From: Closterium sp. NIES-65
Taxonomy: Eukaryota; Streptophyta; Zygnematophyceae; Desmidiales; Closteriaceae
DNA: 64,000 bases
NCBI GenBank assembly: GCA_948144175.1
Contig: CANXME010001987.1
Coordinates: forward strand, 597,062 to 661,061
Direction of reading: 5' to 3'
Shown here: positions 39,304 through 46,466 of the stretch, in pieces
How the letters are laid out: the number at the start of each line of letters is the position of its first letter
Numbering within the stretch: position 1 is the stretch's first letter
Made by a program: the position numbers and the translations under genes
The notes under the pieces: model-generated
Seen by the model: only the letters and a program-made list of their open reading frames with translations
Databases searched by the model: none
Told to the model about the DNA's origin: nothing

Positions 39304-42300
39304 ATGGAGAAGATGTTCGGCCTGCTCCAGGTGGACCAATCAACGGTGGCCATGGTGGAACATTTTGGGCGGTTCGTGAAGGCGCTCGACCCGGGCTGCC
39401 ACTGCGTGCCGTGGTGCTGCTGCTACCGGCCCGCGGGGCTCATGAGCCTCCGCGTGCGCCAACTTGACGTGCGCTGCGAAACCAAAACCAAGGTATTGCT
39501 AGTACTACCGTTGTGCTTCGGTGTTTACGGGAGAGGGTAAGTTGAGGGAAGGGGAAGAGGGCTGTCACTGCGTGCCGTGGTGCTACTGCTACCACCACGC
39601 GGAGCTCATGTCAGGAGCCTCCGCGTGCGCCAACTCGACGCGCGCTGCGAAACCAAAACCAAGGTGAGGCTGGTAACCGTGCTACGGTGCTTTCGAGAGA
39701 GGGGAGGTCGGTGAAAGGGGATGAAGGCTGCCACTGCGAAGCGAAATCTTAACCTTGCCTCATGAGCTCGCGGCACGGTGCTGCGTGCCGCAAGCTCATG
39801 ATGCGAGGTTCAAAGTGTCGCTTCGAATATTTACACCACCAATCATGGCAAGGAACGACGCCAGCAAGGAACGACGTCACCGCCAGTCACAAAATACTTT
39901 TGAAACTCAGTTCTAAACATCGTGGTGCCATAGTTGTGTCCCCTCATACTGCTGCCGTTTCGTCATGTCATCTTTATTCACCCGTTCCCCGCTTCAGGGC
40001 AACGTGTTCCTCACTGTAGTCGCGTCGATACAGTACCAGGCGATTTGCGAGCAGATTGACGACGTGTTGTACAAGCTCAGGACCCTCACCACTCTTTGCC
40101 TTTTCTTTGTATCCCCGTTTTTGGCTTTTCCGCTTCAGGACAACGTGTTCGTCACTGTGGTCGCATCGATACAGTACCAGGCGATTCGCGAGCAGATCGA
40201 GGACGCCTTTTACAAGCTGCAGGATCCCCAGGCGCAGATTCGATCATACGTCTTCGACGGTGAGTGCTGCAGCGTTCGCGATCTACTGTGGCCGATGCAT
40301 CTGAAACATTGCGATTATGATGTACTTCTTGTCATTGTTTTAGTCTTCGGAGTTTGCTTTCGCACCGTGTTTTTAATTCGCTATTTTCTGTTCCCCCCTT
40401 CACCTACACCCCGCAGTGGTGCGCGCGAGCGTGCCCAAAATGGATCTGGACCGTGTATTTGAGATGAAGAACGAGATTGCTCATCCTTCCCCTCCAGTCC
40501 AATTCCCCTTTCCCCTCTTCCCCCCTCCTGTTGCTCCCCTCTCAGTGGTGCGCGCCAGTGTGCCCAAGATGGATCCGGACCGTGTGTTTGAGATGAAAAG
40601 CGAGATCTTTCATTCTTCTCCTCTCCTCCAATTCCCGCTTTCCCCGTTCCTTTCCGCCCTCTCCTTGCTCTTCCCGGCAGTGGTGCGCGCCAGTGTGCCC
40701 AAGATGGATCTGGACCGTGTGTTTGAGGTGAAGAACGAGATTGCTCATACAGTGGAGGAGGAGCTTGAGAAGGTGGGGGTGTGGTGGGGCGTGAGAGTGG
40801 AGGTGCGGGGAGGGGTTCGTGGCGAAGTTTGATGGAAGGTGGTGAAGAATGAGATCGCGCACACAGTGGAGGAGGAGCTCGAGAAGGTGAGTGGAGTGGG
40901 GGTGTGGGGAGGAGCAGGGGAGGGGCAGAGGAGGAGGTGCGCGCGAGCGTGCCTAAAATGGATCTGGACCGTGTGTTTGAGGTGAAGAACGAGATCGCAC
41001 ACACAGTGGAGGAGGAGCTTGAGAAGGTGAGGGGAAGGTGGGGCTGGGGAGAGGGGGGGAAGGGGGGGACGCAGCGGAGGGGGGAGGGCAGCGGAGGTGC
41101 GTGCAAGCGTACTGCAGAGTACCGTGTGTTCGAGGTGAAAGAACGAGATTGCTCATACCGTGGAGAGGAGCTTGACAAGGTGAGTGGGGAGTGAGGGTCG
41201 GGAGGGGAGGGGGAGAGGGAGAGGTGCACGTGAGCGTGCCTAAGATGGATTTGGACCGTGTGTTTGAGGTGAAGAACGAGATCGCTCATGCAGTGGACTC
41301 GAGTGGGGTGGAGGAGGAGCTCGAGAAGGTGAGGGGAAGAATGAAACCACTCATCTATGTGCGTCACTTGCTCTTGGAGTTGAGAATGAACGCGTTTGAA
41401 TCGAACTGTACGTGCATGGAAGTCGTGAAACGCATTTGTCTTGACTCTTCCATGCGCATGCTCCCTGCTTCATAAAACCACTGTTGTAACGAGCAGGCAA
41501 TGAGGACGTACGGGTACCGCATTGTGCAAACGTTGATAGTGGATGTGGAGCCAGACCATCGCGTGAAGGCCGCCATGAACGAGATTAATGCCGGTGAGAG
41601 TGCTGGTATTAACGTATGTGGCAAATGTGAATGTGGATACGTGAATGTGCCGAACCTGATAATGGATGTGGAGCTGGACCGGACCATCGGGTGAAGGCTG
41701 CCATGAACGAGATCAATGCCGGTGAGAGTGTTGGTATTGTATGTGCCAAATGTGAATTTGCATGTGAAGCCGGGACATACGTGAATGTGCAATCGCTGAT
41801 AGTGGATGTGGCGCCGGACAACCGGGTCAAGGCCACCATGAATGAGATTATTGCGGGCAAGAGTGTCGATGATTCTCACATTTGTTTGCATACCTGTGTA
41901 AAAGTCATCTACTTTAATGAGGATGTGCATGTAGTGCAGACATTCATAGTGGGTTGTGGAGCTTACCATTGAGTGAATGGCAAAAATAAGGGTGGACTTT
42001 CACATTTGTAGATTAGCATAAGAGTGTAGAGGTACGTGTACGGTGCACCTATCTCCTTCTGCTGTTACGTTACATTACTCACTCGCACACCATATTCCCC
42101 AATCCCCCCTGCAGCCCAGCGCATACGCATGGCCACACAGGAGAAGGCAGAAGCCGAGAAAATTCTGCAGGTAATGCGATTTCTAGCGATGCAATATCGC
42201 ATCGCTCCTTGATGTACTTCAAAAGGCAATATTTTACTGCATCGCAGTATGTATCCGCCTACTTTCTTTCTTCCACCCGTTGCCGAGTTTTGGGTCGACT

Positions 42301-45300: not shown

Positions 45301-46466
45301 GGATATGGTGAGAGGGTGGGCGGAGGGCGGGAGGAGTGGGAGTGCTGGACGAGTGAGTGAGATGGGTGCCCGTGCAGTGCAGGTAAGACCTAGGTAATGA
45401 TGTAACAGTGCCAGGCGCTGGGAACAGGTGCCCACCACCACACCCAAGGGCGTGCTGACCGTGGTGAGAGGTCGGGTGGTAGTGTTTTGATACGTCTTCA
45501 AATACAGCTTTATCAGCACCACACCCAAGGCGTGCTGACCATGGTGAGAGGTCGGGTGGTAGTGTTTTGATACGTCTTCAAATACAACTTTATCAGCACC
45601 ACACCCAAGGGCGTGCTGACCATGGTGAGAGGTCGGGTGGTAGTGAGTGGGTGAATGTGCGAGTGTTGGAGATGCTTTTTGAGTCTTTGACTAAAGAGGC
45701 ACATTCGTGCCAAGGAGATGCATCCTGCAAAAAGATGTACATTCGTGCGATTATTGTGCCGTGATACATCCTCCCTCATCACAGCCTGTTCTGGGTTTGA
45801 GACGTCTTAATCTTGAGACATCTCAAAACGATATCTTGAGGCACTCAAAACTACGTCTTAAGACGTCTCAAAACTAGGTACATCCTCTCTCATCACAGCC
45901 TTTTCTGCCCTCCCCGTGCCCGTCCTTGCCTCAGGTCATGCTATCGCAGTCAGTCGACACCATGAGGGACATTGGTACCAATAACCGGTTATGTCATGAA
46001 GTGTTATGACTTTTAGACTGACTCAAGAATATGCCATGTTGCTCTGCTCTCGTCCTCTTCCCCACACGGGTCATGTTCACCATTTTTTTGACACCATGAG
46101 GGACATCGGCGCCAAACATCCGGTCGTGATTCGCGACGCATCCTCCCTCGTCATCTTTCTCTGCTCTCCTCATCCCCCACCGCCCTTTACCCCCCACCTC
46201 TCCCTCCCACAGGTCATGTTGGCGCAGTATTTCAACACCATGAGGGACATCGGCGCCAACATCCTTTGTGTTTTGTCCCGTGCTCTCTTGTTATATGCTT
46301 GCAGGTCATGCTGACGCAGTATTTCGACACCATGAGGGACATCGGCGCCAACAACCGGTCGTCCACCATCTTTGTGCCGCACGGGCCGGGCGCAGCGGCG
46401 GATATTGCTGCCCAGATCAGAGACGGGATGATGCAGAGCATCACCGCTGCAAGAACTAACATGTAA
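39304..46466 (+). CDS. HIR: Hypersensitive-induced reaction protein (SPFH/band-7 family)
   Basis: Seven exons joined by GT-AG introns: 39,304-39,492, 40,139-40,259, 40,681-40,772, 41,497-41,593, 42,115-42,170, 42,656-42,808 and 46,305-46,466 (TAA). Phases match at every junction and give 289 aa, the normal length of plant HIR proteins. HIR proteins are membrane-attached oligomeric scaffolds of the stomatin/prohibitin superfamily that act in plasma-membrane microdomains and immune signalling. Family signatures in order: [177 protein letters not shown]. Oddities: Glu replaces the usual Gly at position 2, so N-myristoylation is not expected, though the Cys cluster could be acylated. The third exon's donor is GTGGGG. 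The last intron is 3.5 kb of satellite. No frame break is seen. Confidence 0.93.
39561..39663 (+). repeat. Echo of HIR exon 1 (3' part plus donor)
   Basis: Copy of the last 30-odd codons ([21 protein letters not shown] through CETKTK) ending at a GTGAGG donor, 171 bases downstream of the real donor. A shorter trace (GGCTGCCACTGCG) follows at 39,727. Confidence 0.9.
39980..40090 (+). repeat. Echo of HIR exon 2 (acceptor plus 5' part)
   Basis: Copy of CCGCTTCAG acceptor and [20 protein letters not shown], diverging after YKL, 141 bases upstream of the real exon 2. Confidence 0.92.
40411..41340 (+). repeat. Six echoes of HIR exon 3 around the real copy
   Basis: Partial copies begin at 40,417 and 40,546 (acceptor kept, 3' end lost) before the full exon at 40,681-40,772. 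Four more end at 40,886, 41,026, 41,179 and 41,328 (donor kept, acceptor lost). All encode [20 protein letters not shown] or part of it. The fourth downstream copy has an 18-base insertion; the third is the most decayed. Confidence 0.93.
41594..41972 (+). repeat. Three echoes of HIR exon 4 in about 145-bp tandem units
   Basis: Copies at about 41,650-41,721 (donor GGTGAGAG), 41,785-41,853 (donor changed to GC) and 41,935-41,972. They are separated by a repeated intron stretch (GAGTG(C/T)TGGTATT, then CAAATGTGAAT and GAATGTG). All are downstream of the real exon. Confidence 0.88.
42486..42550. repeat. 5-bp microsatellite (GTTCT then GATCT)
   Basis: About 12 units in HIR intron 5. Confidence 0.9.
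42885..43090 (+). repeat. Two echoes of HIR exon 6
   Basis: Copies at 42,888-42,971 ([14 protein letters not shown], donor GTGGGC) and 43,001-43,086 ([27 protein letters not shown], donor GTGAGA), with a palindrome at 42,982-42,999 between them. Confidence 0.9.
43085..43440. repeat. 20-bp satellite (GACGAGGGGATGCATGGTGA), about 17 copies
   Basis: Near-perfect array beginning exactly at the ATG-GTGAGACG exon-donor junction of the second exon-6 echo. The unit contains ATGGTGAGACG, so it appears seeded by the splice-donor sequence. Confidence 0.93.
43450..43540 (+). repeat. Further echo of HIR exon 6 between two satellites
   Basis: Degenerate copy (GCGTGCTGG, GGGTTCTTGGAGCAAGTGCC, CACCCAAGGACGTGCTGGTC) ending ATG-GTGAAG. 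Confidence 0.82.
43583..45235. repeat. 28-bp satellite, about 57 copies, in the last HIR intron
   Basis: Head-to-tail 28-bp units (TATTGGATAGAGCGATGGTG plus CAGGCATG). The interior is almost perfectly uniform. Single-base insertions and deletions are confined mainly to the right end (44,735-45,170) and one unit at the left (43,660). There are no spacers between units. Long minus-strand frames across it are periodicity artefacts. Confidence 0.96.
45265..45650 (+). repeat. Four short echoes of the HIR exon 6 end
   Basis: Copies ending at about 45,308, 45,462, 45,542 and 45,624, each CACCACA(C/T)CCAAGG...GTGCTG(G/A)(A/C)(T/C)(A/G)TG followed by GTGAGA. The last three lie in roughly 80-bp tandem units (GGTCGGGTGGTAGTG...). 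Confidence 0.85.
45935..46263 (+). repeat. Three echoes of HIR exon 7 (5' part)
   Basis: Copies at 45,935-45,990, about 46,066-46,140 and 46,213-46,263, each GTCATG...GACACCATGAGGGACAT. Two keep a CAG acceptor. All lie upstream of the real exon start at 46,305. Confidence 0.92.

Follow-up and report, generated by a model that had tools for sequence, protein, structure and literature searches.

A repeated pattern of truncated exon copies was detected in introns of the alga Closterium sp. NIES-65, in a 64,000-nucleotide stretch of contig CANXME010001987.1 (positions 597,062 to 661,061; hereafter, the window). It affects an HIR (band 7) gene on the plus strand, in which six of the seven exons are accompanied by partial copies of themselves, referred to here as echoes. 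In total, 19 echoes were identified by blastn searches with the exon sequences (E ≤ 1e-3, the threshold applied to all copies counted below), each of them in direct orientation and within an intron adjoining its own exon. Echoes located upstream of an exon keep its 5' end, and most of those located downstream keep its 3' end. The same signature was found in a second gene nearby; of the 39 copies in both genes, 35 reach the end predicted for them to within 2 nt. We propose, with a probability of about 0.7, that repeated small tandem duplications across exon ends, filtered by selection, produced these half-exon copies.

The seven joined HIR exons encode an uninterrupted protein of 289 amino acids, which is identical over its full length to the deposited NIES-65 protein P0002 and matches the Band 7 domain (PF01145). 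The exons occupy positions 39304-39492 (exon 1), 40139-40259 (exon 2), 40681-40772 (exon 3, with the donor GTGGGG), 41497-41593 (exon 4), 42115-42170 (exon 5), 42656-42808 (exon 6), and 46305-46466 (exon 7, including the stop codon). Echoes of exons 1, 2, 3, 4, 6, and 7, as reported in the first-pass annotation of this DNA, were recovered, whereas no copy of exon 5 was found at E ≤ 1e-3. Their identity to the exons ranges between 77% and 95%, and outside the HIR gene the HIR exons found only matches with E ≥ 0.17 within the window. One copy of exon 3 detected as two blastn pieces was counted once, weaker exon 6 pieces exist beyond the five copies tallied, and an inverted match within exon 1 itself (E 0.001) was left out of the tally.

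Exon 1 is followed by one echo (39559-39663, corresponding to exon nt 90-189) featuring the donor GTGAGG and a frameshift of +5 nt, and exon 2 is preceded by one (39998-40088, nt 1-92) together with its acceptor AG. Exon 3 is flanked on both sides: two upstream echoes (40417-40484, nt 1-68, and 40546-40606, nt 1-61) retain the acceptor AG, and four echoes follow downstream, namely 40841-40886 (nt 47-92, donor GTGAGT, five differences, all at third codon positions), 40936-41026 (nt 2-92, donor retained, seven differences, again at third positions only), 41121-41179 (nt 34-92, donor retained, two 1-nt indels), and 41223-41328 (nt 2-92 with a 15-nt insertion, donor retained; this is the copy found in two pieces). 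Three echoes were assigned to exon 4, all downstream: 41657-41721 (nt 38-97), which retains the donor, carries a frameshift of +5 nt, and aligns in its intron part as well; 41786-41854 (nt 27-95), with GC at the donor position; and a weak internal match at 41934-41977 (nt 28-71, E 5.5e-4). Upstream of exon 7, three echoes were located at 45935-45989 (nt 1-55, acceptor AG retained), 46070-46127 (nt 1-58, GG at the acceptor, two 1-nt indels), and 46213-46264 (nt 1-52, acceptor AG retained).

The five echoes of exon 6 lie in the 3.5-kb intron 6, at 42929-42971 (nt 111-153, GT retained), 43000-43087 (nt 66-153, donor GTGAGA), 43476-43536 (nt 101-153, GT retained, frameshifting indels), 45418-45457 (nt 108-147), and 45598-45624 (nt 127-153, within an 80-bp array). 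The second of them continues into a 20-bp array (43084-43438) of approximately 18 units. Every unit includes CATGGTGAGA, which is also found at the exon 6 donor, and approximately 18 donor-like sites consequently stand in series. Much of the intron is occupied by a 28-bp minisatellite (43581-45216), the main block of which comprises approximately 55 copies. The deposited HIR model of strain NIES-64 (P0009, 236 amino acids) reads through the exon 6 donor and stops within intron 6 (42806-42860), and was probably truncated by annotation. The model of strain NIES-53 (P0007) reads through intron 2, and the residues VVRA-VVRS preceding exon 3 in this model suggest that some 12 nt are repeated at the acceptor; a longer exon 3 echo was not apparent by eye in that reading frame.

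All six upstream copies in HIR begin at exon nt 1 to 3, and 11 of the 13 downstream copies end within 2 nt of the exon 3' end, the exceptions being the weak internal exon 4 copy and an exon 6 copy that is 6 nt short. Overall, the predicted end is kept by 17 of the 19 HIR copies. When 39 copies were placed at random, 3.8 of them kept the predicted end on average and never more than 10 did so in 100,000 trials. Since copies within one family are related, the 39 copies do not represent independent events; counted by exon side, all copies obey the rule on 11 of 15 sides. The expected splice dinucleotides are frequently preserved in HIR, with AG before five of the six upstream copies and GT after 10 of the 13 downstream copies at the aligned end. 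The proposal that upstream copies keep the 5' end, and downstream copies the 3' end and donor, is thus borne out. In none of the 39 copies are the two splice sites of the parent exon retained together (the truncated ends were not searched for cryptic sites), and the interpretation as complete exon cassettes was rejected on these grounds. Even the two near-complete exon 3 copies (nt 2-92) lack the first nucleotide of the exon, and the dinucleotide before them is GA instead of AG.

The second gene featuring the half-exon signature is unrelated to HIR and is located nearby on the opposite strand (26213-36541, minus). It encodes S1 (PF00575) and D123 (PF07065) domains and is represented in part. 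Eleven of its exons were placed by means of P0121, the model deposited for NIES-65, and P0122, the ortholog from Closterium sp. Yama58-4; P0122 extends past these exons, and the gene probably continues below position 26213. Seven of the 11 exons gave rise to 20 copies, 18 of which retain the predicted end, whereas for exons b, h, j, and l (the placement of b being uncertain) no copies were obtained at E ≤ 1e-3. The lengths used for exon a were 522 nt in the copy search and 1500 nt in the placement test, and those for exon f were 117 and 111 nt.

Upstream echoes, all on the minus strand as are those that follow, were detected for exon a (three copies spanning 35983-36290: 36249-36290, 36089-36121, and 35983-36026), exon d (three copies spanning 31073-31450: 31375-31450, 31224-31295, and 31073-31147), exon i (five copies spanning 27528-28399: 28368-28399, 28040-28103, 27909-27972, 27676-27837, and 27528-27591), and exon k (26594-26647, with AT at the acceptor); the acceptors AG are retained in the exon d and i families. 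Downstream echoes comprise one copy each of exon c (31699-31773, with the donor, approximately 640 bp from the exon and separated from it by a 12-bp array), exon f (30038-30092), and exon g (29354-29405, with the donor; three differences, all at third positions, and a following intron that is not recognisably related), as well as a 36-bp array of five copies carrying the 3' end and donor of exon d (30416-30596). The two exceptions to the end rule are one exon a copy that starts 20 nt inside the exon and the exon f copy, which stops 10 nt short of the exon end. The 36-, 12-, and 15-bp arrays of this gene (30416-30668 and 31568-32331) start at or beside the donor of an exon, live or echo, which looks as though short arrays were seeded by donors.

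Repetition is also visible within the coding sequence of this gene. An LPALQRP-type motif in a long coding exon recurs at distances of 117-168 nt, the same size class as the spacing of the copies described below, with six repeats in NIES-65 and seven in the Yama58-4 model; having been found as an amino-acid motif, these repeats have in-frame spacing built into the search. Furthermore, the deposited model P0121 contains five SYVGE repeats compared to one in P0122, and some of its stretches match copies out of frame, so that P0121 appears to take echoes as coding exons. This calls for caution in annotation.

Comparison of each gene with itself yielded 30 near-tandem repeats for HIR and 29 for the S1/D123 gene, compared to none in 10 block shuffles of HIR and none in the shuffles of the second gene. 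Chance similarity was rejected on the basis of the block shuffles of both genes and of the shuffles of a third locus described further below. That the duplicated units extended across the exon end is indicated by whole-unit homology including intron sequence in five families (exon 1, exon 3 upstream, exon 4, exon d, and exon i). For exon 1, a complete 166-bp unit of exon and intron parts (39393-39558) aligns with the segment following it (39559-39724), and in the exon c copy the intron past the donor matches the live flank. The claim of tandem duplication with one breakpoint in the exon and the other in the intron is supported by these alignments together with the end rule. Orientation points in the same direction: all 39 copies are direct, two inverted exon matches lying outside the copy tally, and a search of seven regions of the window for near-tandem repeats (arms 60-400 bp apart, E ≤ 1e-4, overlapping palindromes excluded) recovered 52 direct repeats and no inverted one.

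Spacings between neighbouring copies range between 92 and 171 bp, with a mean of 136 bp and a standard deviation of 20 bp (30 values from three loci). These values were compiled by hand and include one intronic pair and three spacings from the third locus; neighbours within a family are not independent, and steps of approximately 188, 246, 296, 449, 638, and 2000 bp as well as arrays of 36, 80, and 81 bp were excluded. The listed spacings are narrower than the duplication size of 80-200 bp given in the first-pass annotation. Families consist of one to five copies spaced mostly at 92-171 bp, unlike a minisatellite, with the exception of the 36-bp array of exon d; the other short arrays adjoin copies. 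Twelve of the 30 spacings are divisible by three, which is near the chance expectation of one third, and translation of whole units as a source of coding constraint is accordingly unsupported.

The proposed course of events may be outlined as follows. Tandem duplications, mostly of 90-170 bp, would have hit exon-intron junctions repeatedly in this alga. A unit composed of an intron end and an exon start would add a shortened copy on the upstream side of the complete exon, and a unit composed of an exon end and an intron start would add one on the downstream side. Provided that exons are recognised by both ends jointly, a half exon with a single splice site could not be defined as an exon, would be ignored by splicing, and would leave the mRNA unchanged. 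Units containing a whole exon, or out-of-frame units inside an exon, would alter the mRNA and would presumably be eliminated by selection. One process would then have passed two filters, any length being tolerated across exon ends and only multiples of three inside exons. As the molecular cause, slippage on the template may be considered, as may the repair of breaks through filling and joining of ends.

Several results weigh against this reading, among them the distribution of differences between the copies and the live exons. In 33 of the 39 copies (all but the weak internal copy of exon 4 and the five copies of the 36-bp array; one exon i copy was trimmed to 64 nt), 46, 34, and 132 differences were counted at codon positions one, two, and three, respectively. 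Third positions differ at 20% and first and second positions at 6.6%, with a family-weighted ratio of 3.06 (bootstrap 2.2-4.4), compared to an expectation of 1.76 for neutral copies beside a constrained exon and of about 50 if both were constrained. With one copy per family, the median p value for the third-position excess was 0.006 (5-95% range 0.0002 to 0.07). Base composition as its source is unsupported, as A/T sites differ far more at third positions than elsewhere. Among the seven families with at least two copies, changes confined to a single copy amounted to 27, 17, and 48 at the three positions, shared or complex variants to 3, 3, and 20, and changes found only in the live exon to 0, 0, and 4. 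In favour of the proposed reading, 13 of the 15 indels break the frame, nine of the 33 copies are frameshifted, and four contain a stop codon, three of these being among the frameshifted ones.

The introns also provide counter-evidence. On eight of 14 exon sides, no clear intron similarity was found beside the nearest copy (45 nt, z below 2.5), in a test that ignores large indels, for which the donor of the exon f copy was placed by guess, and in which exons d and i match with other copies; the exon 7 flanks appeared to be related by eye once indels were allowed. Wholly intronic duplications of this size are scarce, with one clear case (28709/28838, 128-129 bp), and fewer than expected by a rough, uncomputed estimate. 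The expectation that the nearest copy is the youngest was supported weakly at best (24 versus 14 pairs, p 0.12, or, after replacement of one gapped value, 26 versus 12, p 0.04). Inverted matches exist as well: one exon match per gene (E 0.001 and 6e-5), three uninspected HIR self-matches, and a palindrome at 58037-58080. The tandem-duplication model is retained with reservations: the five whole-unit families and the end rule agree with it, but the third-position excess and the eight unrecognisable intron flanks do not agree with its simplest form, in which the copies would decay neutrally.

Both of the latter would follow if the source of the copies were another, diverged version of the gene (a homolog or a duplicated locus), from which unequal exchange or template switching had transferred them; silent differences and diverged introns would then have been present at birth, with decay setting in thereafter. 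Such an origin would account for intron halves being more diverged than exon halves. The genome report states that over half of the ortholog groups common to all six strains are duplicated in NIES-65 and that strain NIES-4550 is of hybrid origin (PMC10407611). However, the copies of exons 1 and c resemble plain neutral copies, with five and seven differences at first and second positions against three and six at third positions, and a diverged source is regarded as rather unlikely. The third-position excess would likewise follow from partial constraint and may therefore be taken to mean that the copies are in use, either as alternative or mutually exclusive exons or as regulated decoy splice sites under selection. 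In line with this, 15 of the 19 expected splice dinucleotides are intact in HIR, and some copies lack any first- or second-position substitution, among them the first three downstream echoes of exon 3 (the third with its two 1-nt indels) and the exon g echo. The lack of a copy with both splice sites, the frameshifts in nine of 33 copies, and a ratio of about 3 where exon-like constraint predicts about 50 nevertheless make a function of the copies very doubtful.

Insertion of exon-end pieces copied nearby during break repair, in a non-tandem manner, would suit the exon g copy and the nearest exon 7 copy, in which similarity stops at the splice consensus and the remaining unit is unrecognisable. 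It predicts neither the near-universal retention of the exon end nor a single orientation, and whole units align in five other families, so that insertion is considered quite improbable. An assembly artefact might be suspected because many genes of this genome are duplicated and long reads were assembled, the NIES-65 sequence having been described as a PacBio assembly with linked-read correction and a mean intron length of 485 bp (PMC10407611). Most copies, however, differ from their exon by 5-20% substitution, a level that probably exceeds the errors of a polished assembly. In the separately assembled strain NIES-64, the protein agrees from residue 17 to the end of exon 6, and so do the 16 codons that are read into intron 6 (compared by eye), although this stretch contains no copies. 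An artefact is accordingly held to be extremely improbable.

Small tandem duplications of this kind are known from other systems. In the potato RdRp gene, a single tandem duplication over an intron-exon boundary is reported to have created a new intron; as in Closterium, an intron end and an exon start with the acceptor were duplicated, and an 83-bp tandem duplication within an intron of the same gene was described as well (PMC4974935). The potato case differs in being a single event that yielded a new spliced intron via a cryptic donor (PMC4974935), whereas here 39 copies occur in two genes and the deposited HIR protein keeps its seven-exon plan. Direct tandem duplications are also described to arise by fill-in and end joining independently of sequence; they are reported from the human genome, where the insertions are short (<100 bp), and from cultured cells after paired nicks, and the parts of that report considered here describe no link to exon ends (PMC8355091). 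Introners (PMC9860276) likewise add intron sequence to genes, but are elements that copy themselves into many genes, whereas each copy found here derives from the adjoining exon, and within the window no HIR exon copy shared with an unrelated gene was found (E ≥ 0.17 outside HIR). Tandem genomic duplication has been listed among the routes of intron gain with good support (PMC3443670). That model likewise involves a small tandem duplication altering gene structure, with the unit inside an exon; in Closterium, the unit crosses the exon end and lengthens an intron that is already present. Where exons are duplicated in tandem, as in mutually exclusive exons, the copies are complete, having an open frame and two splice sites. 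Repeated exon sequence in adjoining introns is a shared feature, but no copy in Closterium possesses both splice sites. No description of a gene with most exons echoed was found in open-licence titles and abstracts among the matches listed. The mutational class is already known, while the density, the narrow length range, and the consistent half-exon form look new.

Should the pattern be general, it would offer many natural cases bearing on intron lengthening and on the tolerance of duplicated splice sites, topics often argued from single examples. The surviving copies, with one splice site each, resemble a natural experiment showing which duplicated splice sites can be tolerated by a cell. 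As a more far-reaching and tentative idea, which is possible rather than likely, Closterium may harbour a distinct process with one preferred duplication length of approximately 136 bp (near nucleosome size), acting mostly at exon ends and in genes generally, by which introns would grow through layered half-exon copies, since half exons would go unseen by exon-defining splicing, and proteins through repeats inside exons, of which only those in frame would survive. If so, introns would represent an ordered record of the duplications of each exon.

The pattern is not limited to HIR within the window. In addition to the 20 copies in the S1/D123 gene, two further sets were detected at the third locus on the plus strand (57-58.9 kb), namely four copies ending in AGGTAAGCCTT, a common donor (57571-58168, first spacing 124 bp), and a pair of 87-nt copies (58613-58870, spacing 171 bp). 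The pattern is thus not absent from other genes of this 64-kb window. A 49-amino-acid piece encoded at the third locus found no Pfam match at E ≤ 0.1, and five shuffles of the locus produced between zero and two matches at E ≤ 1. The palindrome at 58037-58080 mentioned above lies in this locus and matches itself with an E value of 2e-9.

Among the seven regions searched, near-tandem direct repeats numbered 18 in HIR (2.5 per kb), 16 in the S1/D123 gene (1.5 per kb), 3 in the segment between the two genes (1.1 per kb), and 2 in the third locus (0.7 per kb). Two retroelement regions, recognised by eye from their open reading frames, contained six and two such repeats (0.2 per kb each), at least five of these eight being within arrays; the retroelements may merely be younger. 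The intergenic segment between HIR and the S1/D123 gene includes, at 37372-37774, direct repeats separated by 104, 198, and 231 bp. The five repeats at 60-64 kb all belong to one 45-bp array of approximately nine copies (61217-61624).

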